DNA of 64,000 bases from Chloroflexi bacterium CFX6 (GTDB taxonomy: Bacteria; Chloroflexota; Anaerolineae; Anaerolineales; Villigracilaceae), in contig SZPG01000007.1 of assembly GCA_030263595.1 (NCBI GenBank), positions 36,205-100,204 on the forward strand, read 5' to 3'. Positions 3,593-60,640 of this stretch are shown here, one piece after another. The translations under genes were made by a program, and so were the position numbers. The notes under the pieces are model-generated. The model saw only the letters and a program-made list of their open reading frames with translations. It did no database searches and was not told the origin of the DNA. The first letter of the stretch is position 1. Every line of letters begins with the position of its first letter.

Positions 3593-3669
<77 letters not shown>

Positions 3670-5907: not shown

Positions 5908-5918
5908 TTGCGTTTCTC

Positions 5919-6020
5919 CTAATAGGGAAATGGACTATGCAGGACAATGTAAATAATCAACACACAACCGCCGCCAAAGACGAGTAATGCAAATAGAAAT
6001 AGAAAAATACTCTGTTTCAT
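5919..6020 (-). CDS. 33-residue single-span membrane peptide
   Basis: ATG at 6020 overlaps the stop of the upstream gene by 4 bp (ATGA). The product is MKQ followed by about 25 hydrophobic residues (IFLFLFALLVFGGGCVLIIYIVL). Position and coupling argue for a real small gene. It may be a holin-like or lipoprotein-like peptide, as GGGC could act as a weak lipobox. No function can be assigned. Confidence 0.5.
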   Translation of the reverse strand: MKQSIFLFLFALLVFGGGCVLIIYIVLHSPFPY

Positions 6021-7124: not shown

Positions 7125-7156
7125 CATCTGCTCCTTCCAAACTAACAACCATCAAA

Positions 7157-8707
7157 CTAAAAAACCGTCGTCACCCCGAACACCGCAGGGAACACCCACG
7201 TCCCACTCACATTCCCCAGCAGGTTCGGTTCCAAATAGACCTCCGTCTCGAACGTGTAGCACGACTCATCCACCGACGAATGCCTGTAATACCCGATCCG
7301 ATATTCTCCCGTGATGCCCTTCGATGCAAAATCGGTTGACACCAATCCGAATAATCGCATGCCGAACTGCAGGTCGAATTGGTCGTACATTTTGAACCGC
7401 GGGAACGCCCGCTGGACGGCAAGCCTGCTCCGTAAAATATCCGCCTCGTCCCGCGCTGTGTTGATATCCTGCAGCCAGTCGCTCTTTACTAGGAACTCCC
7501 GTTCCCCGAATGCCTCTTTGCTGTCGGCATCCTCCCGCTCCACGTAAGTGTACTTGTCTGCCGCGATCGCATTCCCGCGCAGGCGGATCGAAAAACTACC
7601 CGAAGGCGGAACCATATAAGTGCCGGTCGCTCCATTGTTTCGTATCGTCAACTTGGCTGTCGTCGCAAATTTCGAAAGACCGATTGTGATATTGCTACTC
7701 AAGTCCGTTCCCGCGCCGTCCTCCTGTGAGTTCGCATCCCAATCTATGTTCTCCACAGGGTCCGTGATGCTCGTCGCCACCGCCTCCTCTCCGTTCAAGG
7801 AAAATTGCGCCCATACCTCCCGTTCCTCCCCCGCGGGAATGAATACCCGATCCTGCGTCTCCCACAGCGTCACTCCCGTCTGTAGGTTTCGTCTGCGCGC
7901 ATATACGCGGATCACGTTGAATACCGTCTCCCAGGGCATCGGCGTGCGCACGCCGTAACTCTCCAGGGTATCGGCGTCCGTGAATGTCATCAGGGGTGTT
8001 TCTGCGGAAACGCGGCTCTTATACACTGCCGCGCCGTTCTCCCCGACGCAGAACATCCCCAGTGCCGCGTCGGCGATGGACTGCATTTCTGCGAACGCGC
8101 TCCGCCCACTCGCCCACCAGTATGCCATTGCCTCGCTCACCGTCGTATCAATCTCCCTGCTGTCCGTCCACCCGAACGCATCCAGGCAGGCTTGCACTGC
8201 CGCATCGTAGCGAATATTGCTCTGCACCGTCGTGCGGATCGTCCGTTTCAACTCGTCCACCGCATTGATCAGTTCCATCTTCACCGATGGCACCTCGCTG
8301 TAGGTCGGGCGGATGTCCGTCAACCTCCCCGTCATCACATCCTCTACCGTCCCTCCCGGTTCCTTCTGCACCCTCAGTCTGAATTTCCGCCCTGGCTGAA
8401 TCATCCCCGCCAGCGGACCGCTCAAATTAAACGGGTCATAACGCCCGTCGAAATCTCTCAACAATAGCGTCCCCCTGCTCGGCGCCACAGGCTCGAACCC
8501 CTGCCCGCCGCCCTGCATGAAATTCTGCCTGCCCGCCTCTGTAGCAATGGAATACAGGTTCAACCCCTCGTTCTCGCCGTTGAAGATGCCGTCGTTGTCC
8601 CAGTCCACCTCGAACATCCACGTCACAGGGCGGTCCACGCTGGCGGCGCCATACGTCAATCCCGCCGCCCCATACAGCGAACCATCCCCATATCTACACG
8701 TGGACAT
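7157..8707 (-). CDS. Large minor tail / tail-tip hub protein
   Basis: 516 residues, start ATG 8707 (MSTCRYGDG) behind GGAGAG. The segment WMFEVDWDNDGIF, a calcium-binding-like DNDG turn, and the later GRKFRLRV and LRDFDGRYDPFN resemble the distal-tail/hub proteins that close the tail tube of siphoviruses. It follows the tape measure gene, where the hub is expected. No peptidase or lysozyme motif is seen. The adhesin-tip role is inferred from synteny. Confidence 0.65.
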   Translation of the reverse strand: MSTCRYGDGSLYGAAGLTYGAASVDRPVTWMFEVDWDNDGIFNGENEGLNLYSIATEAGRQNFMQGGGQGFEPVAPSRGTLLLRDFDGRYDPFNLSGPLAGMIQPGRKFRLRVQKEPGGTVEDVMTGRLTDIRPTYSEVPSVKMELINAVDELKRTIRTTVQSNIRYDAAVQACLDAFGWTDSREIDTTVSEAMAYWWASGRSAFAEMQSIADAALGMFCVGENGAAVYKSRVSAETPLMTFTDADTLESYGVRTPMPWETVFNVIRVYARRRNLQTGVTLWETQDRVFIPAGEEREVWAQFSLNGEEAVATSITDPVENIDWDANSQEDGAGTDLSSNITIGLSKFATTAKLTIRNNGATGTYMVPPSGSFSIRLRGNAIAADKYTYVEREDADSKEAFGEREFLVKSDWLQDINTARDEADILRSRLAVQRAFPRFKMYDQFDLQFGMRLFGLVSTDFASKGITGEYRIGYYRHSSVDESCYTFETEVYLEPNLLGNVSGTWVFPAVFGVTTVF

Positions 8708-8722
8708 TCGTCTCTCCGACAA

Positions 8723-8767
8723 GACTAGCGACTATTAGACTAATGACTATCCGACTAGCGACTCTTT
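8723..8767. repeat. Short GACTA-rich repeats between tape measure and hub
   Basis: Four to five degenerate copies of a GACTAGCGACT/GACTAATGACT motif fill the small intergenic gap. They may be binding sites or simple slippage products. Confidence 0.45.
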
Positions 8768-10549
8768 TCACGCCAGCCCCCTCTCCCGCAACAGCACTCC
8801 CACCGCGCCCGCGATCTTTCGCGCCACGTCCCGCTCGTCCGTCACGCCGTCCGATGTCATATTGATATGGATCACCGTCCCGCCGCCCGCCGCGCTTCCG
8901 AACATCCCACCGCCCGTCATCTCCGCGCCGCCCCAGGCTGTCGCGCTTGGCATCGCAAAACCCGCCGCGGTCGCAGGCATCAGGCTCTTTAGACTCTTCT
9001 CGTAGCCCGAGATCTGCCCCGCCCCCATCTCCCAGCCCACCTCGTGCTCGAACACCTTCGAAGGGCTTTCGATCCCCAGAAACCCCTTAGCCGCTTCCAG
9101 TGCCGCATTTGCCGCTCGCTTTGCCGCATCCTTCAGCCATTCGATGCTGTTTATGATGCCGTTACCGATCCCCTCGATGATGTTCCTCCCAACCTGCCCC
9201 CAGTCGGTGTCCCTGAAAAAACTGATCACAGATTCGACTAAATTGCTGAACCCCGTTTTCAGGTTCTCCCACGCGGTCGTGGCGATGGTCGTGATCAACT
9301 TCCACGCCGCATCCCATGCCTCGCGTAACTTCTCGCCGAACGCCCGCCAATCTCCCTCCCGCGCCGCCTGGAACGCCTGCATCAGCGGACCGATGATCGT
9401 CATCGCCGCCTGGATCGCATTCTGGATGAACTGCCACGCCGTCGCGATTGCGCTCTTGATCCCCTCCCACACTGCCGCTGTCTTCTCGCGGATGCCTCCC
9501 CAGTTGTTTTGCCATGCCGCATACAACAACGCCAGCGCCCCGATGATCACCGCCACCACGATCAGCACCGGCGCGCTCACTGCCCCCACTGCCCCAGCGA
9601 TTGCCGTGAAGATCGGGATCAGCGTCCCGATCGCGCTCACGATGGATCCGATGATCACCAGTAGAGGACCCAGCACCGCCACGATCCCCAACACTGTCAG
9701 GATGTTCTGCTTCATGCTCGGGTCCAACGCGTTGAACCACGCGATCCCCTCCCGCACCCATCCCAGCAATTGGATGGCATATGGCATTAGCATTTGTCCG
9801 ATGCTCGCCGCCAGATTCGTAAACTCGGCCTTGGCGATCCTCGTCTGGTTCGCCATCCCGTCGGACGTGTTCGCAAAATCGCCTGCTACCTGGTTCGTCT
9901 GCTCGTAGATCAATGCCAACGCCGCTTGTGCCTTTGCCGCGTCGTTCACCTCGCCTGTCGCGTCGGCTAGATTCATCTCGATCGCCTTCGCCTCGATCGC
10001 CGCCGCGTTCAACTTCACGCCGAACTGCTCCAGCGGGTTGAACTCTCCCTTCAGCCCGCTCTGGATCGCCTGGAGCGCGGACGAAACATCCGTATTGAAT
10101 ATGCTCGCCATGTCCGCCGCGCGCTCGGTCAGGTTGATCGTCTCCTCCGCTGCCTCCTGCTGGTCGAATCCCAGGTTCTTCAGGAATGCGCCAGTCACTG
10201 CCCCCATCTGGTTGAACTCCGCTGTCGCCAGTCCCACCGTCGTCGCCGAAGTCTGCCCATATTCATGCAGCACGCCTGCCGCATCCCCGAACACCACGTT
10301 CACCGCGTTCGCGCTCTCATTCAGGTCGCTGAACGCGTCCACAGCCAAAACCGCCCCGCCCACGATCGGCAGGGTGAAAGCCGCCGTCATCGTCTTCCCC
10401 GTGCCGGAGAGTTGGTCTCCCGCTTTCTTCCAGGCTTTACCCACGCGCTCCGCTGAGCGCACAGCCTTCAACTCCGCCTTCTCCATCTCTGCCGAGAAGC
10501 CGCCGATATCAGCCGCCAGTTTTACGATCAACGTCGCTAATGTCGCCAT
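8768..10549 (-). CDS. Tape measure protein
   Basis: 593 residues: N-terminal helical/coiled part (KAVRSAERVGKAWKKAGDQLSGTGK), a long alanine-rich helix, hydrophobic segments near 280-350 (TVLGIVAVLGPLLVIIGSIVSAIG and the following stretch), then repeated AWxNxWxGI / W..I...I.TAWxxI elements and a conserved FLGIESPSKVFEHEVGWEMG end. These are the features of a siphovirus tail-length ruler. At roughly 0.15 nm per residue it would set a tail near 90 nm. It follows the two chaperone genes as expected. Confidence 0.93.
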   Translation of the reverse strand: MATLATLIVKLAADIGGFSAEMEKAELKAVRSAERVGKAWKKAGDQLSGTGKTMTAAFTLPIVGGAVLAVDAFSDLNESANAVNVVFGDAAGVLHEYGQTSATTVGLATAEFNQMGAVTGAFLKNLGFDQQEAAEETINLTERAADMASIFNTDVSSALQAIQSGLKGEFNPLEQFGVKLNAAAIEAKAIEMNLADATGEVNDAAKAQAALALIYEQTNQVAGDFANTSDGMANQTRIAKAEFTNLAASIGQMLMPYAIQLLGWVREGIAWFNALDPSMKQNILTVLGIVAVLGPLLVIIGSIVSAIGTLIPIFTAIAGAVGAVSAPVLIVVAVIIGALALLYAAWQNNWGGIREKTAAVWEGIKSAIATAWQFIQNAIQAAMTIIGPLMQAFQAAREGDWRAFGEKLREAWDAAWKLITTIATTAWENLKTGFSNLVESVISFFRDTDWGQVGRNIIEGIGNGIINSIEWLKDAAKRAANAALEAAKGFLGIESPSKVFEHEVGWEMGAGQISGYEKSLKSLMPATAAGFAMPSATAWGGAEMTGGGMFGSAAGGGTVIHINMTSDGVTDERDVARKIAGAVGVLLRERGLA

Positions 10550-14790: not shown

Positions 14791-16274
14791 AATGGATCAT
14801 CCTCCACTGTGGCAGATTCCCGTATCCGTTCCAGCAGGCTCGCCGTCCACAGCATGGACTGACTCAGCGTCGCTATCTCCGCCAATGACGTGGACAACGC
14901 CGCCCGTCCCAGCGCCGCCGCCGCCAGCTCGCCCAGCGTGATCGTCAATGCCGCATCCGCCTCTGCTGCTTGACCTGTGACCCGCGACTTTCGACTCGTG
15001 AGTGCCTGCGCAAGATCGCTCTCCGCCACCTGCACGACCAATACTTGCTTGCGCGGGAATAATGCCTGCGCAAGATCGCTCTCCGCCACCGGCTGGATGA
15101 CCACGACCTTCACCCGGCTCAACGCCTGAGCGCTTTCCGACTCTGCCGCCTGCCCGACTGCATTCTGTTTTCTGACAACGACCGCCTGCGCCTCATCCGT
15201 CTCACTCACTTGACCTGTGACCTTCGACTTTCGACTCGTGATTGCCTGCGCCGTATCCAATTCCTCAACCTGGCTGACGATGGTCACAGCGGATGTGCTG
15301 ATCGGTTGTGCCAGATCCGCCTCCGAGGCTTGACCTGTGACCTTCGACTTTCGACTCGTGATTGCCTGCGCCGTATCCAGTTCCTCAATCTGGCTGACGA
15401 TGGTCACAGCGGATGTGCTGATCGGTTGTGCCAGATCCGTCTCACTCGCTTGACCTGTGACCTTCGACTTTCGACTCGTGATTGCCTGCGCCGTATCCGT
15501 CTCGCTCGCCTGCCCTATGACCTTCGACTTTCGACTCGTGATTGCCTGCGCCAGGTCCGTCTCCGACGTTTGACCTGTGACCTTCGACTTTCGACTCGTG
15601 ATTGCCTGCGCCAGGTCCGTCTCCGACGTTTGACCTGTGACCTTCGACTTTTGACGTCCGATTGCCTGCGCCAGGTCCGTCTCACTCACCTGGTTGACCG
15701 TCCCGATGATCGGACTGCCTCCTAAATTCCCGCCCTCCCAATCGTCAATCCGAGTGGTAGACCCGCTGTCGTATCCGCACAACCCAGCCGCGCCGCTCGA
15801 CAAACTGGAATCCGTCTGCGCCCCAGGCGTCCCCGTCGTACTCCCATTGATGTAGGGTCTGATCGTCGTCCCCTCCGCCTCGATCCGCACAATGTTATTG
15901 ACCGCGAACTGCCCAGCCGTCGAACCCAGTTGAGTCCAACTCCCGGATACCATCTTGAACAAATAACCGGATGTACCATAGTTCGCCGCGTACCATCCAT
16001 AATAATTCCCCCCCGTCGCCGCGCGCACGCAAACGCCGATAAAATGTCCCGCCTGCGCAGCAATACGCGCCGCAGAGTATTGATCCGCGTTGAAACTATC
16101 CGCATTCCAGAATGCCCCCATCTCGTTCCCCGCCCGATTGGGATATACGTCGTCCGACGCCGCCAGAACCTGCAACGTGGATGCCGCGCCCTCCGCCATC
16201 GTCCAATTGGACGAGTACGTGGTCAGCGCCGCGTTCGCGCCGGTCGTAAAGGTATCGGTCGCAGGCAATGCCAT
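14787..16274 (-). CDS. Phage surface protein with LamG-like domain and 13 repeats of 20 residues
   Basis: 495 residues. Residues 1-180 look like a concanavalin/LamG-like lectin fold (DTFTTGANAALTTYSSNWT, NIVRIEAEGTTIRPYINGS). Residues about 185-445 are thirteen 20-residue units with consensus (K/R)VTGQxxExDxAQAIxSRKS. The unit is exactly 60 bp and nucleotide identity between central copies is very high, implying recent copy-number change. A short helical C-terminus follows. The repeats resemble ETD-AQ arrays of actinophage minor structural proteins. It is probably an exposed carbohydrate-binding fibre; its place between neck and capsid genes is unusual. Confidence 0.65.
   Translation of the reverse strand: MALPATDTFTTGANAALTTYSSNWTMAEGAASTLQVLAASDDVYPNRAGNEMGAFWNADSFNADQYSAARIAAQAGHFIGVCVRAATGGNYYGWYAANYGTSGYLFKMVSGSWTQLGSTAGQFAVNNIVRIEAEGTTIRPYINGSTTGTPGAQTDSSLSSGAAGLCGYDSGSTTRIDDWEGGNLGGSPIIGTVNQVSETDLAQAIGRQKSKVTGQTSETDLAQAITSRKSKVTGQTSETDLAQAITSRKSKVIGQASETDTAQAITSRKSKVTGQASETDLAQPISTSAVTIVSQIEELDTAQAITSRKSKVTGQASEADLAQPISTSAVTIVSQVEELDTAQAITSRKSKVTGQVSETDEAQAVVVRKQNAVGQAAESESAQALSRVKVVVIQPVAESDLAQALFPRKQVLVVQVAESDLAQALTSRKSRVTGQAAEADAALTITLGELAAAALGRAALSTSLAEIATLSQSMLWTASLLERIRESATVEDDPL
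14925..15715. repeat. 60-bp coding tandem repeat array (13 units)
   Basis: Period exactly 60 bp. Units alternate between two types near 15240-15480 (the SRKS type and a STSAV type), showing a higher-order 120-bp duplication. The outermost units are the most diverged. Confidence 0.9.
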
Positions 16275-25059: not shown

Positions 25060-26763
25060 TCACCCCAACATCCTGATCCCCCGCTTCTCATACACGCTCT
25101 TCGCCTCGGGATGCCGTAGCGCCAGATCAATAGCCATGATCAACGCCACCACCCCGTCGATCTTTTCTCTCGATCGCTCCTTATCAGGTTTGATATTCCC
25201 GGCCGGGTCCATCCGCGCCACCAGGTTGTCCGCCATCCACGTCAACACTGGATTGTTTCCATGTCGAATCTTCTTCGCCCCGATCAACCGTTCGAGCTCC
25301 TTCATGGGCGGCGACATTGACGCATACCCCTGACCGAACTGCACCATTGTCATGCCCTGCTTCTCCAGCACCTGCACCACGCGCGCCGCGCCCCAGCGAT
25401 CGAACGCCGTCTGATCGATATCGAACGTATCTGCATCCTCCTCCAACTGCTCGAAGATCCAATCGTAATCAACGACGTTGCCGGGCGTCGCCTCGATATA
25501 CCCATCCCGCACCCACTCCGCATAATGTGTCCCCTCCTGACTGCGCTGCATTACCGCATCTTCTGGCACCCAAAACCGACACACTACATCGAGATTATCC
25601 TTGTCATCCGGGAACACCATCACGAATGCCGTCACGTCCGATGTGCTGGACAGGTCCAGCCCCCCGTATCCTGTCCGCCCCTTGAGCCGCTCTGGCAGGT
25701 CTAACGCCTGTATCTTCCCCTCGCATTCCCGCCACGACTCCATGTCCATCCATTTCGTCTCTCCCTGCACCCATATGTTCAACTCGCGCCGTTTGAAGTT
25801 GTTCTGCGCCGCGGGCATCTTCGCCGCGCGCAGTGCTTTCATCCGCATGTCGTCCCATTTTTTCGACACGCCCAAATTCGGGTTTGCCTTGATCCAGCAC
25901 GCCTCGTCCCGCCAATCGTCCTCGTCGTCGATCGTGTAAATGATCCCGAACCACGAATCGTCCACGAACGACCCATCTTCCCACCCCTCCAATACCTTGC
26001 GCGTATACTCGTGTTTCTCGTAGCACACGCTCAGGCGGTCCATCCCAGCCGTCGTAATGGCAACGATCATCGGCTGCCGCCGCGAACCGGTGGCGGTCTC
26101 CAGCACATCCCACATCTCGCGGCTTCGCCAGGCGTGCACCTCGTCCGCCAAAATCCCGTGCACGTTCAATCCATCAGTGCTGTCCGTATCCGCGCCGAGA
26201 GGTTCATACTTGCTCGCGCTCGCTTCCATGTGCAGATTATCTTTATAGACCCTGATGTGTTTCCGCAAGATGCTATTTTTCTTCACCATGCGGATCGCCT
26301 CGCTGTGGACGATGCGCGCCTGGTCCCTCTTGGTCGCCGCCGAGTACACCTCCGCTCCGGGCTCCAGGTCCGCAAACGCCAGTTTCAAACCGAATCCAGC
26401 CCCCACTGTCGACTTTCCGTTCTTGCGCGCCACCTCCTCCCAGATCGTCCGAAAGCGCCGCGTGCCATCCTCGCGCATCCAGCCGAACGCATTCCACACG
26501 ATGAATTGTTGCCACGGCTCCAACTTGATGTACTGTCCAGCCCATTCCCCCTTCGAATGTTTCAGCAGGTGAAAGAAGTGGATCGCAGCGACCGCGGTCT
26601 CACGGTCGAACCATAGCCCCCGTTCATCGCCATGCTTCAGGTCGTGGAAGTATCGCTCGCATGCCAAACTCGTCCACTTGCACGCGACGATCGTTCCATC
26701 TACGACATCCCGGGCATACTGCTCGGCGGGATGCAGCGACAATATCTTCTTGGCGCGTCCCAT
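25060..26763 (-). CDS. terL: Terminase large subunit (HK97-type)
   Basis: 567 residues. The ATPase has the degenerate Walker A RKNGKST (113-119) and Walker B ILADEVH (204-210), with a motif-III-like AITTAGM. The nuclease domain begins near residue 355 at GGLDLSSTSD and ends with VALIMAIDLALRH. It packages DNA into proheads; HK97-like large subunits typically pair with cos cleavage and an HNH partner, which is present here. One base separates it from TerS. Confidence 0.96.
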   Translation of the reverse strand: MGRAKKILSLHPAEQYARDVVDGTIVACKWTSLACERYFHDLKHGDERGLWFDRETAVAAIHFFHLLKHSKGEWAGQYIKLEPWQQFIVWNAFGWMREDGTRRFRTIWEEVARKNGKSTVGAGFGLKLAFADLEPGAEVYSAATKRDQARIVHSEAIRMVKKNSILRKHIRVYKDNLHMEASASKYEPLGADTDSTDGLNVHGILADEVHAWRSREMWDVLETATGSRRQPMIVAITTAGMDRLSVCYEKHEYTRKVLEGWEDGSFVDDSWFGIIYTIDDEDDWRDEACWIKANPNLGVSKKWDDMRMKALRAAKMPAAQNNFKRRELNIWVQGETKWMDMESWRECEGKIQALDLPERLKGRTGYGGLDLSSTSDVTAFVMVFPDDKDNLDVVCRFWVPEDAVMQRSQEGTHYAEWVRDGYIEATPGNVVDYDWIFEQLEEDADTFDIDQTAFDRWGAARVVQVLEKQGMTMVQFGQGYASMSPPMKELERLIGAKKIRHGNNPVLTWMADNLVARMDPAGNIKPDKERSREKIDGVVALIMAIDLALRHPEAKSVYEKRGIRMLG

Positions 26764-26764
26764 C

Positions 26765-27241
26765 TCACCCTTTCACCTTCACCGCCGCGCCGAACAACAT
26801 CTTCTCAAGCTCCTCTTCCGGGTCAGCCTGCTCCACCTTCACCCGCGACCGGCTGCTCGGCGTCATCCCAAACTCCGCCGCAAACTTCACCATCTGATCC
26901 ATCGATCGTTTGGCAATCTGCATATAGGGATTCTGAACCAGGTTGCCTTTATCGGTAAGGATGACCGCATCTTCCTTGGCGAGATGTTTTTCCGCATCTA
27001 CCCAATGACCATAAGCTCCACAGTAACTGGCAAGTGCTGCGCGGTCCATTTGCACCAAGATGCCAAGTGCATATAACTCCTTCACAATTCGGTTCCACTC
27101 TTGCCGCGCTTCCCCTTTGAGATGTGCGGGGCACGACGGAATGGATACCGTCGGCTTGGGCTCCTTCATATTGAGTTTGCGCTTGCCGGGATTCCCCTCC
27201 AATTTCTTAAGTTTCGTGGGCTTCGGTTTCCTGCCTCTCAT
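26765..27241 (-). CDS. Terminase small subunit, P27 family
   Basis: 158 residues from ATG 27241. MRGRKPKPTKLKKLEGNPGKRKLN is the classical P27 start. WNRIVKELYALGILVQMDRAALASYCGAYGHWVDAEKHL and NPYMQIAKRSMDQMVKFAAEFGMTPSSRSR complete the domain. It overlaps the methyltransferase stop by 4 bp. Expected to recognise the packaging site. Confidence 0.95.
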   Translation of the reverse strand: MRGRKPKPTKLKKLEGNPGKRKLNMKEPKPTVSIPSCPAHLKGEARQEWNRIVKELYALGILVQMDRAALASYCGAYGHWVDAEKHLAKEDAVILTDKGNLVQNPYMQIAKRSMDQMVKFAAEFGMTPSSRSRVKVEQADPEEELEKMLFGAAVKVKG

Positions 27242-27783
27242 CTTGCCTCCGGTTGCATCCCGGTCAATTGCGACCAGCGTTCCAGGCACACCGCTACATA
27301 CTTCGGGTCATTGTCCATCGTTCGGCAGCTCTTCCCAGTCCGCTCACACGCCACCAGCGTTGTCCCGGAGCCTGCAAAAAGGTCCAGTACGATATCGCCT
27401 GCCTTGCTGGAATTGCACAACGATCGCTCCACCAGTTCTACCGGCTTCATCGTCGGGTGTTCTTCGCTCCTCTTTGGGCGGTCGATCTGCCATACGTCAG
27501 ACTGTTTGCGATCCTCCACTTTCATCAGTCGCGGTGCTCGATTATCCCAGCCGTACCACATCGGCTCATACTGCGTGTGATGATCCTTGCGCGACAGCAC
27601 AAGTTGGTCTTTCACCCAGATGATGGTGCTCGACCAATGGAATCCGATCTTCCTCAATGCCGCATCGATGACCGGCCATTCCTGCCCGCCCATCACCAGG
27701 TAGATCGGCGCGCCTGGTTGGCAGAAACTACCGTTTGACCTCGGTTGGCTTCGGTTGGCTTCGGTTTTCGACCACGCATTCAT
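27238..27783 (-). pseudogene. DNA methyltransferase fragment lacking the catalytic N-terminus
   Basis: 181 residues. DLFAGSGTTLVACERTGKSCRTMDNDP is motif I / SAM-binding, and ...SEEHPTMKPVELVERSL is the usual preceding segment of beta-class N6-adenine / N4-cytosine enzymes. The DPPY catalytic motif and target-recognition part expected upstream are absent, and nothing encoding them lies in the 80 bp before it. TTCGGTTGGC repeats mark the truncated 5' end. Probably inactive, but translation through it couples to TerS. Confidence 0.7.
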
Positions 27784-27864: not shown

Positions 27865-28221
27865 TTACTCCCCCCTCCTCTTGCTACCATCATGAGCGGT
27901 CTTATAGTTGTGACATCGTATGCAAAGAGGTTGCTCATTTGATTTGTCATCAGTGCCTCCACGGCTAAGAGGTATTATGTGGTCTCGTATCGTTGCCTTG
28001 ACGCGGCGATCTGCATGCAGACTGAATGGATCAGCACACCACGGGCGCCGGCGCAGCAGATCATCGCGCATCTGTTGATGGTCATAACCATAGCCGCGCC
28101 GTGCCGCACTTGGACGTGCATCATGCGGACGTGGGAGTCGGTGCTGTTCACACCGACTCCCCTGGTATATAAGGTTCGGACATCCATGCACGGCGCATGG
28201 ACGTGGAGGGCGCTTAGGCAC
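27865..28221 (-). CDS. HNH endonuclease (terminase-associated)
   Basis: 118 residues, GTG start at 28221. RPCAVHGCPNL ... CEQH forms a zinc site, SAARRGYGYDHQQMRDDLLRRRPWCAD the typical linker, and DHIIPLSRGGTDDKSNEQPLCIRCHNYKT the HNH core. HNH proteins next to TerS/TerL are often needed for cos cleavage. It overlaps the preceding membrane gene by 8 bp. Confidence 0.9.
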   Translation of the reverse strand: MPKRPPRPCAVHGCPNLIYQGSRCEQHRLPRPHDARPSAARRGYGYDHQQMRDDLLRRRPWCADPFSLHADRRVKATIRDHIIPLSRGGTDDKSNEQPLCIRCHNYKTAHDGSKRRGE

Positions 28222-28645
28222 GTGTGTGCGAAAACACAGCCAATCCAAATCCACGGATCAGCGCGCGATGAACATGCTTTGTGCCGGCAACCTGTACGAT
28301 GTAGCCAAAGATCAGGCTACCGAATTGGGCGATAATGATCAATTGGGCATCCAGCCTGGGAAAGTCGAAATTGGGATACAGTCCCAGCGCCACAGCAATG
28401 CCAGCCAGCCCAACCAGATTCAGCCCGGCGGACCATTTGCCTGCATTACCATCGCCAATGACGCCCGCCCATTTGAGCACGTCCACGAGCAAACCGATCA
28501 ACGCCTGGGCGCCAAGCATACTGCCGGCAATGGCGAGGACAATGTCCAACTGCACGCCGAACAGGGATAGAACAGCCGAGAAAACAACCACCAACCCCAA
28601 AGTCCAGCCGAGCGCTTTCAAGATGCTTTCAAGATTGAACTTCAT
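28214..28645 (-). CDS. Four-span membrane protein, possible holin
   Basis: 143 residues from ATG 28645 behind AAAAGGAGAATTGAC. Four hydrophobic segments (TLGLVVVFSAVLSLFG, LAIAGSMLGAQALIGLLV, GLNLVGLAGIAVALGLYP and IIIAQFGSLIFGYIVQVAG). It lies 28 nt downstream of the terminator of three-hairpin element A. Size and topology fit a holin or membrane modulator; no family named with confidence. Confidence 0.6.
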   Translation of the reverse strand: MKFNLESILKALGWTLGLVVVFSAVLSLFGVQLDIVLAIAGSMLGAQALIGLLVDVLKWAGVIGDGNAGKWSAGLNLVGLAGIAVALGLYPNFDFPRLDAQLIIIAQFGSLIFGYIVQVAGTKHVHRALIRGFGLAVFSHTRA

Positions 28646-28673: not shown

Positions 28674-28791
28674 CAAAAACACCCGACGCCACGATGACGC
28701 CGGGTGCAATGTCCGACAGTAGGTGTCTCAGATAAGCCCGAGACTGCAATAATATTCAATTGTGGATTGAAACGAGAGCCTCCTTTCAATC
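28674..28791 (-). ncRNA. Three-hairpin RNA element A (upstream of the 28214 gene)
   Basis: On the minus strand: P1 GATTGAAA/TTTCAATC (28765-28791), CCACA linker, P2 GTCTCGG/CTGAGAC (28725-28744), CTGTCGGA, then a 12-bp P3 hairpin (28680-28706) followed by TTTTTG. P2 differs from element B at two adjacent positions of one arm and stays paired (C-G/G-T against T-G/A-T), hinting at structural constraint. P3 also terminates transcripts from the integron cassettes. Confidence 0.6.
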
Positions 28792-28792
28792 G

Positions 28793-28846
28793 ATATTATA
28801 ATCCTGCTTATAACGGCGGGGCATTACCCGCACCGCGATTTTTATA
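28793..28846. repeat. Degenerate distal attC remnant
   Basis: On the minus strand GCGGTGCGGG/CCCCGCC arms end at CCG-TTATAAG, like the CCG-TTRRR ends of the three clear attC sites. A matching R'' box (complement of TTGGGC) was not found, so this would be a truncated last attC marking the end of the cassette array. Confidence 0.4.
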
Positions 28847-28847
28847 A

Positions 28848-29045
28848 CTACGATAATTCAGCCGCAGACTTAGCGGCGTCGGGTGCATGCAATGTTGGGC
28901 GTGTGCCTGCTAAAACATTCTCGCCACATTTCGGACATTTTACAATGTCGTCTTGTGGCAAATTGGCAGAGACCATCTCGCCTTCCCATTCGCAGGAATT
29001 GCAATAAGCCAAAAATCTTTCGGGTAATTTTAGAACTTGTGCCAT
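28848..29045 (-). CDS. Integron cassette 5: 65-residue zinc-ribbon protein
   Basis: ATG 29045 behind AAAGGAGATAC. MAQVLKLPERFLAYCNSCEWEGEMV ... CPKCGENVL is a two-CxxC zinc ribbon. The TTGGGC at the cassette start is the right half of the preceding attC. No nuclease or toxin motif seen. Function unknown. Confidence 0.6.
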   Translation of the reverse strand: MAQVLKLPERFLAYCNSCEWEGEMVSANLPQDDIVKCPKCGENVLAGTRPTLHAPDAAKSAAELS

Positions 29046-29067
29046 GTATCTCCTTTTGAAAGTAAAC

Positions 29068-29191
29068 GCCCAACGGTCGTTTTTAGTGGTGGCTGGCGAG
29101 AACCAAAACCACCGAGGGGATAAATTCAAAGCGTGGATCATATTTGCAGACGGAGAGCCTGCCAGCCATCCACTGCAAAACTTTGTTAGCC
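29068..29191 (-). other. attC site 3
   Basis: 124 bp. R'' box GGCTAAC at the upstream end and cleavage site G-TTGGGC at the other. Inner arms AGTGGATGGCTGGC and GCCAGCCACCACT are complementary except for one unpaired A, the extrahelical base that gives integron recombination its strand choice. The stop of the cassette-4 gene lies inside the R'' box. Confidence 0.85.
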
Positions 29192-29377
29192 TTCGTCACT
29201 ATCTTGTAAAGCGAGATCAACAGATTCGACGATGCCATCAACAACAGCGGCGGCGGCACGTGCCATAATTTCGGCTGTACCTTTTGCGATGTAAGGCGCG
29301 TCATCCCCTGTGGCAACGAAATCGCCAAGCCACTCTTCAATTTTTTCAACCAATCGGGCAAAATTTTTTGCTTGCAT
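29186..29377 (-). CDS. Integron cassette 4: 63-residue acidic protein
   Basis: ATG 29377 behind AAAGGATGTCAG. The helical, Ala-rich product MQAKNFARLVEKIEEWLGDFVATGDDAPYIAKGTAEIMARAAAAVVDGI resembles small antitoxin-like or structural helices but has no firm family. Its TAA falls in attC3, as is typical of cassettes. The cassette starts at TTAGCC, matching its attC R'' box. Confidence 0.6.
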   Translation of the reverse strand: MQAKNFARLVEKIEEWLGDFVATGDDAPYIAKGTAEIMARAAAAVVDGIVESVDLALQDSDEG

Positions 29378-29415
29378 TCTGACATCCTTTCAGAATAAGA
29401 AGGCTAATGTTTTCG

Positions 29416-29652
29416 TTACCTGCCGACGATGATTACTAGAACCACCGCCAGCAAGATAACATTGATGAAAATTGACACCGCCAGCACACGCCGCAAGGCG
29501 GTCAGATGCACGCTTTGTTGGAAGGACTGCCTATTCTGCAGGGCTTCTTCAATTGCCAATTCCATCAACCGCGCAACGCTTTTCCTCTGCTCAAGAGATA
29601 GATTGCGAAGCGTTAGACTGTTATCAAGCACATCAAAATCAGTTTTGTTCAT
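29416..29652 (-). CDS. Integron cassette 3: 78-residue membrane-anchored protein
   Basis: ATG 29652 (MNKTDFDVLDNSL). A helical N-terminal part (RKSVARLMELAIEEALQNRQSF) is followed by a C-terminal span (VLAVSIFINVILLAVVLVIIVG). Cassette start TTGGAA is intact, but no attC lies between this gene and cassette 4, so its recombination site appears deleted and the two cassettes are fused. Confidence 0.55.
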   Translation of the reverse strand: MNKTDFDVLDNSLTLRNLSLEQRKSVARLMELAIEEALQNRQSFQQSVHLTALRRVLAVSIFINVILLAVVLVIIVGR

Positions 29653-29664
29653 TTGCAAGTGTCC

Positions 29665-29759
29665 TTCCAACGGTCTTGCGTTAGCCGCTAAAACGGTTTA
29701 CGCAAGACCTGATAATTTTACCGACCAGTAGTTTTAGTCGGCTGCACGCTTTGTTGGCT
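29665..29759 (-). other. attC site 2
   Basis: 95 bp. R'' AGCCAAC complements the TTGGCT start of its own cassette. Arms AGCCGACTAAAAC and GTTTTAGCGGCT pair except for one extra A. Cleavage at G-TTGGAA. This is a textbook attC hairpin. Confidence 0.9.
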
Positions 29760-29956
29760 GGCGACTCTTCAGGAAGGTCTCTCAGCCATGCGGCTATAAA
29801 CTCGAAATAAAAGAAATCAAATTGCCATTCCTTCAAATACAAAAAGCGACTGACTGATAGCAATGCACTTTCGCGTGAGGACGTTTCAATTACGAAAAAC
29901 GCCACTGACCATTCAGTTCCTTGCCAGTAAAAAACTTCAAATAACGAAAACTTCAT
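29681..29956 (-). CDS. Integron cassette 2: 91-residue protein
   Basis: ATG 29956 (MKFSLFEVFYW). Aromatic-rich N-terminal half (WQGTEWSVAFFVIETSS, FLYLKEWQFDFFYFEF) with a basic C-terminal tail encoded by attC2 itself. No recognised family. Bounded by attC1 and attC2. Confidence 0.55.
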   Translation of the reverse strand: MKFSLFEVFYWQGTEWSVAFFVIETSSRESALLSVSRFLYLKEWQFDFFYFEFIAAWLRDLPEESPANKACSRLKLLVGKIIRSCVNRFSG

Positions 29957-29971
29957 GTTTGCTCTGTGTCC

Positions 29972-30063
29972 AGCCAACGGTTATGCGTTAGTGGCGACGG
30001 GCACAGCCACTTGTCCGCTTTGATCCACAGCCTGCCCGTCGTCCACTGCACGCAGTGTTATGC
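29972..30063 (-). other. attC site 1
   Basis: 92 bp. R'' GCATAAC complements the GTTATGC at the start of cassette 1. Arms AGTGGACGACGGGCA and TGCCCGTCGCCACT pair with one extra A. Cleavage at G-TTGGCT. The three attC sites differ in arm sequence but share the position of the unpaired A. Confidence 0.92.
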
Positions 30064-30337
30064 GCCGCACATGGTCGCGGTGATAATAGCCATGCCAGTC
30101 TGTTGAGTGGACAATAGATACTGCATCATAGGGAGTATCCCTAAGTTCATCGGCTGGGATTGGTTCAAAACCCAATTTGCGCCACTGCTTGCGAGTCTTA
30201 TATTCAGCGGTTGCACGCTCGATACGCAAAATACCAGGGCAATTGTCTTTACTTGGGCGTGTTTGAAATTTCCATTTGCAAACGCTACACGACCAAAAGC
30301 CATCATTTCTACGATAGGGTTGATGTTTACGCTTCAT
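29981..30337 (-). CDS. Integron cassette 1: 118-residue zinc-finger-like protein
   Basis: ATG 30337 behind GAAAGGAAAAGTT, 22 nt after the cassette junction. MKRKHQPYRRNDGFWSCSVCKWKF with a following cysteine (NCPG) suggests a zinc site; the remainder has TDWHGYYHRDH. The last 30 residues are encoded by attC1. First cassette, next to attI, so likely the most recently acquired. Function unknown. Confidence 0.6.
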   Translation of the reverse strand: MKRKHQPYRRNDGFWSCSVCKWKFQTRPSKDNCPGILRIERATAEYKTRKQWRKLGFEPIPADELRDTPYDAVSIVHSTDWHGYYHRDHVRRITLRAVDDGQAVDQSGQVAVPVATNA

Positions 30338-30354
30338 AACTTTTCCTTTCGAGT

Positions 30355-30372
30355 AGGCGCATAACTATCCTT
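30355..30372 (-). other. attI-like junction
   Basis: GATAG-TTATGC straddling 30364/30365 lies 14 bp after the intI stop, with no hairpin partner on the intI side. This is the single-site attI configuration at which IntI inserts cassettes. The exact attI limits cannot be seen. Confidence 0.75.
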
Positions 30373-30378
30373 ATCCAC

Positions 30379-31374
30379 TCACAGACGGATAATTTTCCAC
30401 TGGACAGAGTCCAATTTATCCAGCGGACTTTCCACCCCAACGCCCCCAGGGTGGAGAAGATGCAAATAGATCATTGTAGTCTTGATGTCGTTGTGACCCA
30501 TCAACTCTTGCACAGTACGAATGTCGTATCCAGCCCAAAGCAGATGTGTCGCAAAACAATGACGGAAAGTATGCGGCGTGACATGCTTCGTGATGCCTGC
30601 CTTGATCGCCGCTCTGCGGATTGCCCGCTGCAATTCGCTCTCATGCTGGTGATGCCGTCGGCGGATCTTCGTCTCAGGATCTACGCTATAATTTTGGGCA
30701 GGAAATACCCAAAACCACCCCCAATCACAACCAATATTCGGATACTTCCGATCCAGCGCGCCAGGAACATACACCCCAGGCATCCCACGCTGTTGATCAA
30801 TATTCCACATATTCCGCCCAATCGACATTTGATCCATCAGCGGCTTGACCAGTGTGTTCGGTAGCGGGACCGTTCGATCCTTGTTTCCCTTGCCGCCCCG
30901 CACAGTCACCGTCATCAAACCATAATCAATATCTTTGACGCGCAATTGCTGACACTCATGCAATCGCAACCCGCAACCGTACAACAATCGCGCCATCAAA
31001 TTGAATGGCTCGCTGTCTATATTATTCAGAACTTTGGCTGTGTCCTCACGATTCAACACCATAGGCAGGCGTTTACCTTCCTTTGCCCGAATGGAATCAA
31101 TATTCTGAATATCAATCTCTAATACTTCGCGGTACATAAACAGGATCGCATGCAGACATTGATTTTGTGTCGACGCGGAAACCTTCGCCGTGTTCGCCAG
31201 ATAATTCAAATACTTCTCGATCTCCACTTTGCCCATCTCACGTGGGTGTCGCTTGCCATGAAACAGGATGTATCGTCGGCACCAGGTCACATACGCCGCC
31301 AACGTTTTACGGCTGTAATGCTTCATGCGGATCCTATCCGCCAACTGGTCAAGAAGTTTCTTTTCAGGCGTCAT
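30379..31374 (-). CDS. intI: Integron integrase IntI
   Basis: 331 residues. Catalytic residues R137 (GLRLHE), H268-x-x-R271 (HTFRH), H294 (GH) and Y303 (TTMIYLH). The integron-specific insert at about 205-245 (ALDRKYPNIGCDWGWFWVFPAQNYSVDP ... RRRHH) is present, followed by the conserved GGVGVESPLDKL end. This patch separates IntI from ordinary XerC/D or phage integrases. It overlaps the upstream phage gene by 11 bp and points toward, not away from, its cassettes. It appears intact. Confidence 0.95.
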   Translation of the reverse strand: MTPEKKLLDQLADRIRMKHYSRKTLAAYVTWCRRYILFHGKRHPREMGKVEIEKYLNYLANTAKVSASTQNQCLHAILFMYREVLEIDIQNIDSIRAKEGKRLPMVLNREDTAKVLNNIDSEPFNLMARLLYGCGLRLHECQQLRVKDIDYGLMTVTVRGGKGNKDRTVPLPNTLVKPLMDQMSIGRNMWNIDQQRGMPGVYVPGALDRKYPNIGCDWGWFWVFPAQNYSVDPETKIRRRHHQHESELQRAIRRAAIKAGITKHVTPHTFRHCFATHLLWAGYDIRTVQELMGHNDIKTTMIYLHLLHPGGVGVESPLDKLDSVQWKIIRL

Positions 31375-31669
31375 TGATCACCTCATAGCGTCTCAGCATT
31401 TTCCGCAACGAGCCGAGAGATGGATACCACTCAAATTCCCTGCCGCAGATCGTGCATGGGATTTTATATCCTGTCACAACTATCCCACGTCTCTTCGGGA
31501 CGAAATCAGCGGGTGGGGCATCCAGCGATTCATCATAGACCACCAATGCGGTGATGTGCCCGACTGATTGCAAATCCGTGCGCACAATCTCCCCGACCAC
31601 GTGACCTGCTCCATCTCTGCCACCGCAATACCAGAATCTACGTCGATTTGAATCTATTGATACTGGCAT
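31364..31669 (-). CDS. Phage protein with CxxC motif
   Basis: 101 residues, ATG 31669 (MPVSIDSNRRRFWYCGG); a TTG 6 bp earlier is an alternative. Ends with CTICGREFEWYPSLGSLRKMLRRYE, a recognition-helix-like zinc element. It links the DnaA-like gene to intI by overlaps on both sides. Function unknown. Confidence 0.6.
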   Translation of the reverse strand: MPVSIDSNRRRFWYCGGRDGAGHVVGEIVRTDLQSVGHITALVVYDESLDAPPADFVPKRRGIVVTGYKIPCTICGREFEWYPSLGSLRKMLRRYEVINDA

Positions 31670-31671
31670 GA

Positions 31672-32769
31672 TCAATCCGTTTCCACAGCAACATTGCTCG
31701 CAATAACAAATTCCGCGTCAATCTGTCGTCCCAAGATCGCCGTCAACTGTCTATTGACATCCTCGCACAGCCTGCTCATCAGCCAGTTCTGCGCATACTT
31801 GTTGCGTGTGGCGACCTGCATTCTACCATCCGCAAAATGGACAGGGAACGTATCCCGCACCCAGGTCTCGAAAGAGGCTTTGGATATCTCATTCTGCAAG
31901 TCCACCAGCACCGCCTCCCAGGCGTGGACCACCTCCGCAGTGACCGTCGCGTCAGGTTCGCAGGTCCAATGCTCCTCGGATTCCTCGTCCTCCACAGATT
32001 CCCATCCGTTTGACAGGCAAGCCGCGAAATGCTCGTCATAGACCTGCTTGCTCCCGAAGTCCATCAAACAGACAGGACAGCGCTTCTCCCACAGCCCAAT
32101 ATCGTCCAGGAACTGATCGGGCAGGTACTCGCGATAATTCTCCAAGAACATGACCGCTGGGCGTTCATCCCGCTTCAGTTTCGAGTAGATCAGCCCTACG
32201 GGCGCCGAGAGCGATGCGCGCTTTTCGTAGGCGTATGCCACCCACCCCAGCAGGAGAGTGTCCTGAAAATCGTCTTGCGTCCAGGGCAGGTTTGTCAGGA
32301 TCAGCTTGCTGCCGTCGAATAGGTCAGGGATATGTGCGATGATGCGCTGAGCTAGCGGGGAGAAAGTCTCCCCGAGATTTTTTCCCAACTTAGAAGGAGG
32401 AGGAGTTAATCTTGTTTCAGACTCAATTAAGTTAACTTCTCCTCCTAGTGGGGAGAATTTCTCCCCAGGAATTTTTCCCGACTCTAAGTGGGGAATTTCT
32501 CCCTCCCCCATCTCGTGCAAAAACTCCATGCCCATCTCTGTCAGCATGTACCCCTCGCCTGCCACCGCGAGATGACCGTCCCGTACCAGCCCCGCGATGT
32601 ATTTCTGGCAGGTCTTTTTATCGATCAACAGCGTGTCGGCCGCGTGCCGCCAGCGGACAGGATGCGCCCCTGCCCCAAGGTCGAATAGCACCCGCAACAC
32701 GATGATCCAGCGGTCCCAAAGCGCCCGATACAACCGTACCCGTTTTGGTGGTATTGCGAGTGTGCTCAT
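31672..32769 (-). CDS. Phage replication protein: winged helix with C-terminal DnaA domain-I-like region
   Basis: 365 residues. The N-terminal part (DRWIIVLRVLFDLGAGAHPVRWRHAADTLLIDKKTCQKYIAGLVRDGHL) resembles a winged helix. A CPVC ... H..C zinc element lies around 245. The last 90 residues (WEAVLVDLQNEISKASFETWVRDTFPVHFADGRMQVATRNKYAQNWLMSRL) match DnaA domain I, which normally sits at the N-terminus of DnaA and contacts DnaB. There is no AAA+ or DNA-binding domain IV. It may recruit the host helicase to phage origins. Confidence 0.65.
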   Translation of the reverse strand: MSTLAIPPKRVRLYRALWDRWIIVLRVLFDLGAGAHPVRWRHAADTLLIDKKTCQKYIAGLVRDGHLAVAGEGYMLTEMGMEFLHEMGEGEIPHLESGKIPGEKFSPLGGEVNLIESETRLTPPPSKLGKNLGETFSPLAQRIIAHIPDLFDGSKLILTNLPWTQDDFQDTLLLGWVAYAYEKRASLSAPVGLIYSKLKRDERPAVMFLENYREYLPDQFLDDIGLWEKRCPVCLMDFGSKQVYDEHFAACLSNGWESVEDEESEEHWTCEPDATVTAEVVHAWEAVLVDLQNEISKASFETWVRDTFPVHFADGRMQVATRNKYAQNWLMSRLCEDVNRQLTAILGRQIDAEFVIASNVAVETD

Positions 32770-43428: not shown

Positions 43429-43464
<36 letters not shown>

Positions 43465-43540: not shown

Positions 43541-43612
43541 AAGGTCGGACGCTGCGCGCAAATCCTCTCGCCCCGACAGAATAGAGATTCTCGTAAGAGA
43601 GTCTCTTTTTGT
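43541..43612 (+). repeat. Second tRNA-Pro 3'-end remnant with its own terminator
   Basis: AAATCCTCTCGCCCCGACAGA (43560-43580) repeats the attR end exactly, preceded by a partial GGTCGGA, and is followed by GAGATTCTC-GTAA-GAGAGTCTC and a T-run, a diverged copy of the tRNA terminator. It is either the scar of an earlier integration or a tandem duplication. Confidence 0.7.
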
Positions 43613-45255: not shown

Positions 45256-45296
45256 TTTTGTGCCGCGACAATTATGTATGTCGCCTTTCAATAATG

Positions 45297-45458
45297 GGCG
45301 ACATGAATGTCGCATTACAACCACGGCGACATGAATGTCGCGGTACAACCATGGCGACATGAATGTCGCATTACAACCACGGCGACATGAATGTTGCATT
45401 ACAACCATGGCGACATGAATGTCGCGGTACAGCCACGGCGACATTCATGTCGCGGTAC
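45297..45458. repeat. 28-bp tandem repeats with palindromic GCGACATGAATGTCGC core
   Basis: Five full 28-bp units (starting 45297, 45325, 45353, 45381, 45409) and a sixth partial unit whose core is inverted (GCGACATTCATGTCGC). Linkers alternate ACAACCAC/ACAACCAT. They fill the gap between the protease and the solute-binding gene; a fragment of the same core recurs near 51960. Confidence 0.85.
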
Positions 45459-45482
45459 GGTATAACCAGGATAACCTCATAC

Positions 45483-46889
45483 ATGCGAACGTCACAAAAA
45501 TATTCCGCCTTATTCGTTTTATTCCTCGTCGTTCTTTCCGCGTGCGCCCCCTCCGCTTCGGTCAATTCGAGCACGCAGACCCCGCGTCCCACCGCGACGC
45601 CTGCGGCAAAGCCGTCAGCGCAGGAAACGCCCACCCCGGCAGCGAGCAGGCTGAACGTCGCGAAAGAGGCGCTGCGCGGGGCGCAGGTCACGGTCTGGCA
45701 TCCGTGGTTTGGCGCGGAGGCGGCTCTGTTCGAGTCGCAAGTCGCGCAATTCAACGCGGGCAATGAATGGGGTATCGTCGTCCGCGCGGAGGGCAAATCC
45801 AGTTTCAGCGAATTGTTTTCCCAGGTCAATGCCGCGTTCGATGAATCGAATGATCCAAACGTCGCGATCGTCCTACCCGAATACGCGCTCGAGTGGCGGG
45901 AACGCGTCGTTGACCTGAACGATTATCTGGGCGACCCGGAGTACGGCATGAGCGGTCTGGAGGTGTCCGAATTCCCGACCGTGATCTGGAGGCAGGATGA
46001 AGTGGACGGCGCGCGCCTGGGGATGCCCGCGCAGCGAACCGGACGCTTCATTCTCTACAACCAAACCTGGGCGCGTGAACTCGGGTTCGATTCCCCGCCT
46101 GAAACTTCCCCTGAATTCGAGCAGCAGGCGTGCGCGGCGAACAAGGCGCTGGCTTCCGACGCGGACGCGAACAACGACGCGCTGGGCGGCTGGCTGGTGG
46201 ACGCGCATCCGATGACGCCGCTTTCGTGGATGCTTGCCTTCGGCGGCGGCGTGGAGTCGGGGAACGGCTATCATTTTCTCGCGCAGGAAAACATTGACGC
46301 CTTCAAGTTCGTGAAGTCGTTGCAGCAAAAGGGTTGCGCGTGGGTGGCTTCCGCCGGGACTTCGGTATATGACCGCTTTGCCTCGCGGCAGGCTTTGTTT
46401 GCCTCCGCCAGCCTCGAAGAGTTCGTGGATCAATCGCGCGCCTTCAACGCCCTGGGAAGCGGCGACGAGTGGATCGTCCTGCCCTTCCCCGGTCCCGAGC
46501 GGACCGCTTTCGTCGTGTACGGCTCCTCGTTCGTGGTCTTCGAATCGGACGACGTGACCCAACTTGCCTCGTGGCTCTTCATCCGCTGGGCGCTTTCAGC
46601 GGAGAATCAGGCGCGCTGGGCGCAAGGCACGGGGATGTTCCCGCTTCGTTCCTCGACGATGGACCTGCTCGCCGATTACTCGATTTCTCATCCCCAATGG
46701 ATGGAGGCGGTCAACCTCCTGCCGAACGGGGAGCCGACTCCAAAACTTTCCTCGTGGAGAACCGTAAAGATAATGATGCAGGACGGATTCCGCGACATGT
46801 TCGATACCATCCGCCACCCCGACCTGACCGAGGGGCAGGTGCCGTTGATACTGAGACAAATGGACGAGATTGCAAACGAGTTGAATTGA
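45483..46889 (+). CDS. Extracellular solute-binding lipoprotein
   Basis: 468 residues from ATG 45483. Signal peptide with lipobox LSAC (C about residue 20), a Thr/Pro linker, then a type-2 periplasmic-binding fold with TVWHPWFGAEAALFESQVAQFNAGNEWGI, WRQDEVDGARLGMPAQRTGRFILYNQTWARELGF and SGDEWIVLPFPGPERTAF. It resembles carbohydrate-type binding proteins. No ABC permease or ATPase is encoded next to it, so the partner transporter is elsewhere. Confidence 0.88.
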   Translation: MRTSQKYSALFVLFLVVLSACAPSASVNSSTQTPRPTATPAAKPSAQETPTPAASRLNVAKEALRGAQVTVWHPWFGAEAALFESQVAQFNAGNEWGIVVRAEGKSSFSELFSQVNAAFDESNDPNVAIVLPEYALEWRERVVDLNDYLGDPEYGMSGLEVSEFPTVIWRQDEVDGARLGMPAQRTGRFILYNQTWARELGFDSPPETSPEFEQQACAANKALASDADANNDALGGWLVDAHPMTPLSWMLAFGGGVESGNGYHFLAQENIDAFKFVKSLQQKGCAWVASAGTSVYDRFASRQALFASASLEEFVDQSRAFNALGSGDEWIVLPFPGPERTAFVVYGSSFVVFESDDVTQLASWLFIRWALSAENQARWAQGTGMFPLRSSTMDLLADYSISHPQWMEAVNLLPNGEPTPKLSSWRTVKIMMQDGFRDMFDTIRHPDLTEGQVPLILRQMDEIANELN

Positions 46890-60582: not shown

Positions 60583-60640
60583 GCAATGCCTCTTATATAG
60601 AACTCTCCGCGCAGGTTGCGTTCTCTAACGCAACCGTCCC
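60583..60640. promoter_or_regulatory. 5' region of the REC-PAS gene with hairpin
   Basis: GGTTGCGTT-CTCT-AACGCAACC (60614-60635) is a perfect 9-bp hairpin upstream of the start. It could be a leader hairpin or part of the repeat array that follows. Confidence 0.5.

Follow-up and report, generated by a model that had tools for sequence, protein, structure and literature searches.

An integron within a tRNA-Pro prophage of a Chloroflexota bacterium and a distinct clade of phage-surrounded integron integrases

The prophage and its integron

The window, which is the whole 64,000-nucleotide stretch of Chloroflexi bacterium CFX6 DNA analysed here, carries an integron inside a prophage inserted at a tRNA-Pro gene. 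The prophage spans ~39.8 kb between two identical 36-bp copies of tRNA-Pro sequence; attL (3634-3669, plus strand) forms the 3' end of tRNA-Pro(ggg) (3593-3668) and attR (43429-43464, plus strand) is the second copy of the core. Between the repeats are genes for an integrase, portal, major head protein, head protease, terminase subunits, tape measure and endolysin, with a repressor-like gene at 41861, so that an integrase, structural genes and both attachment sites of a temperate phage are present. The integron (28814-31374, minus strand) falls wholly within this prophage, between a gene of the ORF103 family and a gene for a holin-like protein, and its placement between attL and attR in a preliminary description of this DNA is thus borne out.

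The integron integrase gene, intI (30379-31374, minus strand), encodes a 331-residue protein (IntI) that matches the integron integrase model TIGR02249 at 1e-129 with 432.5 bits against a cut-off of 265. The XerC and XerD models reach 138 and 132 bits, well below their own cut-offs. The best relative of solved structure is the Vibrio IntI4 (2a3v, 1.6e-85), and the alignment spans the integron-specific stretch that had been read by eye in the window protein; W220, P233 and H241 align with W219, P232 and H240 of 2a3v, and these we take to be the residues that handle the extrahelical base. R137, K162, H268, R271, H294 and Y303 are invariant in a five-protein alignment and presumably make up the catalytic set. 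A recombinase of the XerC/D type was ruled out by the family scores and by a 44-row tree of hand-picked rows, rooted on a single distant Xer-like recombinase of the host, in which IntI does not group with Xer. The intI gene is under strong purifying selection: comparison of the window with viral contig L011 gives dN 0.071, dS 1.29 and a ratio of 0.055 (pS 0.61), the remaining finite ratios are 0.05-0.18 with many pairs saturated, and the reading frame is open in all eight copies translated.

An attI-like site (30359-30392, minus strand) consists of the end of intI with a TTATC/GATAA pair and a core G|TTATGC. The G of GTTATGC, at 30365, lies 14 bp beyond the last intI base (30379) in the minus-strand reading, exactly where an attI-like point had been proposed. 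The predicted core, cited as GGATAAGGATAG|TT, directly follows the intI stop, in keeping with a primary attI adjoining its integrase gene. Among 13 intI ends, near-copies included, the exact TTATC...GATAA pair is found in 10 and the core GGATAG|T likewise in 10; the pair has one mismatch in L013 and L058, and genome G001 (locus L172) has neither pair nor core.

Sites of attC type were sought with a covariance model, R1, whose nine training sites were picked by hand in viral contigs L012 and L013, none coming from the window; its matches in those two contigs are therefore not independent. With default filters and E up to 10, R1 gives five matches in the 64-kb window and no others, all on the minus strand between 28808 and 30065: attC1 (29973-30065, E 4.7e-13), attC2 (29666-29761, E 3.2e-12), the weak attC3 (29403-29525, E 3.8e-4), attC4 (29068-29193, E 1.2e-8) and attC5 (28808-28902, E 3.2e-10). 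An unfiltered search of 28700-30450 gives the same five prominently and six extra matches at E 3 or worse, and the whole host genome yields four matches, all within the prophage array (attC4 was missed, 150 of 415 candidates being scored). The sites have paired R and L boxes and an extrahelical base, weakly so in attC3. The covariance search proposed in the preliminary description therefore does not fail; the attC hairpins described there stand, and the count of three gives way to five. All five lie on the minus strand as does intI, so that IntI and cassettes read in one direction, as first described.

The array comprises five minus-strand cassettes. Cassette 1 (29978-30364), nearest intI, has an open reading frame (ORF) at 29981-30337 for a 118-residue protein of a conserved family. 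It is followed by cassette 2 (29671-29977, ORF 29681-29956), cassette 3 (29408-29670, ORF 29416-29652, with a hydrophobic C-terminal stretch), cassette 4 (29074-29407, ORF 29186-29377) and cassette 5 (28814-29073, ORF 28848-29045, with two CxxC pairs). In all five, eight or nine of the first nine nucleotides match the complement of the R'' that belongs to the cassette itself, a level that is reached by 3.45% of 4,992 random GTT starts.

Around the integron, intI is preceded by the ORF103-family gene (31364-31675, minus strand; E 6.9e-12 to a profile of five integron-less relatives), the end of which overlaps the intI start, and by a further phage gene of the same overlapping string (31672-32769, minus strand; relatives in L197, L198, L202 and L207). 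The first phage gene past the array encodes the holin-like membrane protein (28214-28645, minus strand; relatives in 16 viral loci), a name given by analogy only, as the protein lacks a match to PHROG or any other family. On this downstream flank also lie an HNH endonuclease gene (27865-28254, minus strand; phrog_144, 2.9e-24) and the genes for the small (26765-27289, minus strand; phrog_83, 1e-53) and large (TerL; 25060-26763, minus strand; phrog_9, 593 bits) terminase subunits. The phage's own tyrosine integrase, distinct from IntI, is at 4271-5299 on the plus strand (phrog_1, 1.4e-17). Elsewhere, repeats of 60-bp period run through 14940-15719 within a long predicted prophage protein; a partial second tRNA-Pro att core at 43559-43584, 114 bp past the attR copy, is perhaps the scar of an earlier integration; and tandem repeats with units of 28 and 29 bp lie outside the prophage at 45269-45486 and 60612-60872.

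A clade of integrases among phage genes

In the 44-row tree eleven IntIs form a clade with support 100/99.9: those of the window, of viral contigs L011-L014, L054, L056 and L058, of phage Rctr41k (L131), and of genomes G294 and G001. L055 and L057, near-copies of L054 and L056, are not counted among the eleven. The 33 other rows fall outside, including IntIs of the host's order and those of the P1, Vibrio and Shewanella phage records. A profile search kept 80 of 96 viral loci, L054-L058 among them. For the trees, loci with matches covering less than ~250 residues were dropped to leave 136 rows, and removal of a further 17 near-duplicates and of L001 and L002 gave a second tree of 117 rows. In the protein search of viral contigs, identity to the window IntI is 88% for L011, 78% for L012 and 75% for L013; it is 68-71% for L054-L058 and 71% for L014, a contig of an Anaerolinea thermophila metagenome-assembled genome, and thereafter no higher than 55.5%.

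Members of the clade are surrounded by phage genes. TerL is in the same record as intI in the eight closest viral contigs, G294, G001, the window and Rctr41k, and lies on the intI strand in 10 of 11 clade members, at a spacing from directly adjacent to ~12 kb (Rctr41k, whose terminase matches phrog_38 at 9.9e-89). The TerL searches each covered 50 records hand-chosen from 81 (80 viral loci and Rctr41k), of which phrog_9 matches 16 and phrog_2 matches 7, mostly weakly; some of the viral-contig TerL matches and that of G294 run across in-frame stops. Among 400 genomes of the host's order, with up to five candidates scored in each, IntI is matched at E<=1e-125 in only three: the host (G000), G294 and G001.

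G294 belongs to another genus of the same family, and the search for related prophages that the preliminary description had recommended found in it a colinear prophage that is likewise inserted at this tRNA-Pro and, like that of the window, has a tRNA-SeC on its far side. The two 36-bp ends of this prophage are identical to each other and differ by one base from those of the window. Its integrase (65% identical in the gene-by-gene comparison, 68% in the integrase search), IntI (73%), holin-like protein (51%) and HNH endonuclease (55%) are encoded in the window's order, and the structural genes are more diverged (capsid 45%, portal 35%, TerL 30%). None of the other integrases found in the 400 genomes is more than 52% identical to the window phage integrase. 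The locus has a single attC match in G294 versus five in the window. Presence of the phage lineage in more than one host genus is thus supported by the colinear prophage at the same tRNA-Pro.

The direction of the arrays also characterizes the clade. All 36 R1 matches in clade members are on the intI strand, out of 39 in that search in total, the 36 including the nine training sites and five in the near-copies L055 and L057; a further search that included G294 gave 5 of 5 on the intI strand. Comparison loci were 35 in number, ~1.5 kb on each side of the intI of 30 relatives together with five others, and 12 of them have R1 matches (11 relatives and L015; 19 of the 30 relatives have none). Ten of these 12 are divergent, L133 and L137 being the two that are not. 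No attC was found on the divergent side of the phage intI genes, and in the window, G294, L014, L054 and Rctr41k intI begins within the end of the gene upstream of it. Because of these overlaps read-through from phage genes is likely, and the overlap of intI with the gene before it, together with the lack of divergent-side attC matches, suggests that intI and cassettes would be transcribed from the upstream string of phage genes.

These comparisons bear on the possibility that a host chromosomal integron was swept by chance into one prophage, the phage being its passive carrier. Such a capture has a published counterpart in Vibrio (PMC9892861), IntI genes are common in the order (some match in 40 of 61 genomes, the host's own included), and the host has a second IntI. 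However, none of the host-order IntIs fetched exceeds 55.5% identity to the prophage IntI, which sits with phage sequences in a separate clade; the prophage array runs in the reverse direction with respect to 10 of 12 comparison loci; and the same slot is occupied in a different genus. A host-derived integron fallen into the phage was rejected, since by identity and in two trees IntI is not nested among host-order IntIs; passive carriage is thus largely refuted by the tree and must be considered highly improbable. A class 1 mobile integron was likewise rejected: the P1 record's IntI1 shares 51% identity with the window IntI and sits in another clade.

Two further groups of IntIs were observed. 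The second IntI of the host is at 3-944 of contig C137, at the contig end; it is 47% identical and groups with the order's other IntIs, and R1 gave no match on C137, all 48.6 kb of which were searched. A second IntI clade, made up of 20 rows among L059-L084 plus L211, contains nothing but viral contigs in the 117-row tree. Five of its members group with the P1 record's class 1 IntI1 in the 44-row tree (100/99), proteobacterial chromosomal IntIs being hardly sampled there. Several second-clade members have TerL ~21-26 kb off on the other strand, and R1 on second-clade arrays gave five matches in 4 of 61 viral loci searched, all opposite to the intI strand.

Cassette units, slots and cargo in related phages

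Paired positions covary in the attC hairpins of the phages. When the nine training sites are aligned by sequence alone, 86.6% of cells are paired, and 13 of 22 pairs have changed on both sides; the covariation score was reached by none of 500 shuffles, and the number of further pair types by 6 of 500. Sliding the partner positions lowers pairing to 28-36%, in a comparison that favours the unslid version since the structure was drawn from the same nine sequences. The R helix is 74% and the L helix 93% paired, a difference that fits an integron, in which the final R box is part of the following cassette. The expected junctions are also seen in the arrays: 56 R1 matches in 13 loci gave 43 neighbour pairs, 35 of them scorable (nine loci) and 8 not, and R'' agrees with the start of its own cassette at five or more of six positions in 30 of the 35, versus 4 of 35 for the next core. 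This was a rerun using all matches in the 13 loci, a first run having scored 29 pairs from 44 of 49 R1 matches in nine loci. Cassettes recombined as circles leave such a signature, which is present in 5 of 5 window cassettes and in 30 of 35 pairs of the phage loci. Repeated ORF-less hairpin units of ~50-60 bp, near 11385, 11823 and 13550 of L011 and near 11005 and 14333 of L012, are flanked by matching core-like sequences and look like a tiny empty cassette that has spread within the two arrays.

It could be argued that the integron is decaying, IntI and array being remnants that no longer recombine. In favour of decay are attC3, which is degenerate in both core and hairpin, the small number of only five cassettes, and the single attC match of G294; but intI is maintained by purifying selection with its frame open in every copy translated, R'' matches its own core in all five window cassettes, and the arrays of relatives hold 1 to 10 attC matches. 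Decay therefore appears improbable.

A scan with the holin-like protein shows how the integron sits among phage genes. Of 16 viral loci found, IntI precedes the holin-like gene in three (L058, L208 and L210, the last two being records of L012 and L013), and in L200 (4), L201 (10) and L204 (1) attC matches stand before it but no intI is visible; the L200 and L201 arrays start at a contig end, and L204 covered only 10 kb upstream. L209, on the same contig as L175, has a cassette-1 relative and no attC in the part searched, and the remaining nine loci lack both IntI and attC. Eight of these nine have the ORF103-family gene directly before the holin-like gene, with gaps up to ~300 bp; the ninth, L197, has three other ORFs between them. 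As the genes that flank the integron are neighbours in eight of nine relatives without it, the integron is an insertable module. The ORF103 profile, from five seed genes picked by eye in integron-less loci, matches 12 of 19 loci searched; the gene immediately precedes intI in the window, G294, L013 and L014, lies one gene further upstream in Rctr41k (a weak match, 6.7e-6), and follows the array in L012 and L204. As the module comes after TerL in L011, L054, L056 and G001, it occupies at least two slots, always on the TerL strand where TerL is visible.

Cassette contents mostly differ between phages. When ten arrays were compared, protein matches were found between L012 and L131 (45%) and between L056 and L131 (53%), and nucleotide matches were short. 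The cargo between attC sites includes an adenine methyltransferase of type D12 in L012 and a C5 cytosine methyltransferase in Rctr41k, both of which match type II methyltransferase models. Counting itself, the cassette-1 protein has 34 family members at E<=0.001, and it has one Pfam match, below cut-off; the nearest approach to a window cassette in another phage is a 74% relative of this protein on phage contig L175, where no attC was found. Behind the arrays of L013 (12290-14899) and L011 (13690 onward) are stretches with, by eye, a common promoter-like start and a related gene, and that of L013 includes a DUF3440/PAPS-reductase gene and a ParB-like gene.

A number of observations weigh against an active cassette platform common to these phages. 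At the sites themselves, attC3 scores 23 bits and its 3' core, ATTAGCC, departs from GTTRRRY; in free single-strand folding attC1 (z -2.7) and attC2 (z -3.0, through a different local hairpin) clearly beat shuffles, and attC3, attC4 and attC5 fold no better than shuffles (z 1.0, -0.9 and 0.4). With respect to cargo, no window cassette was found intact in another phage array, and Pfam, NCBIfam and PADLOC (the latter on four of the five ORFs) assign no family to window cassette proteins. The slot is only partly conserved: the order is TerL-intI-array in L011, L054, L056 and G001, the array of L012 stands ahead of its ORF103 gene, and the ORF103 profile is without a match in L011, L054, L056, L058, L172, L200 and L201. 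Among clade members, phrog_9 and phrog_2 are unmatched in Rctr41k, whose terminase belongs to another family; the L014 contig ends at intI, so that neither array nor TerL is visible, although an ORF103-family gene precedes its intI, and its phage-integrase fragment aligns over 72 residues only, at 57% identity to that of the window. More generally, the viral contigs are metagenomic predictions, some of them fragments, and the host-order IntI loci are assumed to be chromosomal.

Probable function of the phage integron and its relation to known systems

On balance the tRNA-Pro prophage carries an integron of a distinct, phage-surrounded IntI clade, and this integron probably serves the phage for capturing, exchanging and expressing small cargo genes. 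Because relatives carry the same type of integron with mostly different cassettes, these viruses likely collect small genes, swap them and spread them between bacteria. IntI would recombine folded single-stranded attC sites with attI at its own stop codon, and with transcription coming from the phage operon the shuffling of cassettes may be tied to phage gene expression and replication; transfer of the phage would then carry the integron platform between host genera. A more far-reaching proposal is that a lineage of temperate phages has domesticated the integron: an IntI clade and an attI of the phages' own would form an insertable module within a phage operon, which shuffles a private set of counter-defence and accessory cassettes during replication and shuttles cassettes between the chromosomal integrons of different host genera; the considerations for and against this proposal are about evenly balanced. 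A narrower role, in which IntI serves mainly phage-phage exchange, the arrays of co-infecting phages trading anti-defence and other cargo with little host-integron traffic, is a possibility to be entertained tentatively. The few cassette proteins common to phage arrays, L012-L131 and L056-L131, and the methyltransferase genes of the L012 and L131 arrays are as this role would have it, but the phage-trained R1 also fits attC sites beside host-order IntIs, so that traffic with host integrons may occur as well.

It is an open question how cassettes and platforms travel between distant bacteria whose integrons are all sedentary and chromosomal, and a phage lineage that keeps its own integrase and attI while changing its array would be a dedicated vehicle, which makes the question testable. 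If capture and exchange of cargo by the phage integron is correct, phages would exchange accessory genes by site-specific recombination without reliance on chance mosaicism.

Integrons have been found in phages before. Qi et al. 2023 report three complete integrons and one In0 among 10,705 phage genomes, in Vibrio, P1 and Shewanella phages, and also cite integron-associated prophages in other species (PMC9892861). Those of Vibrio anguillarum phages are captured host integrons, that of the Shewanella phage has an IntI 95% identical to S. oneidensis IntI, and that of P1 is class 1 (PMC9892861); phage-plasmids with class 1 integrons are also known (PMC9600943). The present phages resemble the Qi et al. 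cases in having complete intI-attI-attC arrays in temperate phages, with methyltransferase genes in the cargo (PMC9892861), and differ in that the IntIs of the Vibrio, Shewanella and P1 records fall outside the present clade, and in that several of the present phages share attI and, partly, slot. Rctr41k (KX853513.1), which is not named in the main text of Qi et al. 2023 (PMC9892861), is like the window in its IntI (53% identical), in six attC matches downstream on the same strand and in the terminase beyond them, but is the most distant member of the clade, and the stretch of its record shown carries no integron annotation. Its integron is at 5690-10200, with intI annotated xerD, integrase-like protein, and most array genes hypothetical.

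The direction of the phage arrays has a chromosomal counterpart. Reversed orientation, which the preliminary description had noted for a few lineages, is on record for Treponema integrons, where intI is transcribed toward attI and along the cassettes (PMC3607928); these run in the same direction as the phage-borne ones but are chromosomal, and no Treponema IntI was among the rows of the present trees. The integrons of the host's order, assumed chromosomal, share the IntI family and the attC architecture with the prophage integron, R1 recognising their attC sites, but 10 of 12 comparison loci are divergent and their IntIs are at most 55.5% identical to that of the prophage. In a study of sul4, a resistance module with an integron integrase lies beside Caudoviricetes regions in Myxococcota and Chloroflexota sludge genomes, and its authors, from one comparison, take the phage region as unrelated to the module. 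In the literature searched, preprints and most subscription journals being outside it, no report came up, apart from those cited here, of an integron lineage carried by phages or of an integron in a Chloroflexota prophage. Integrons in phages are thus already known, as class 1 or host-type elements; what the sequences compared here point to as new is that phages carry an integron lineage marked by an IntI clade of its own, a mostly conserved attI and differing cassettes.

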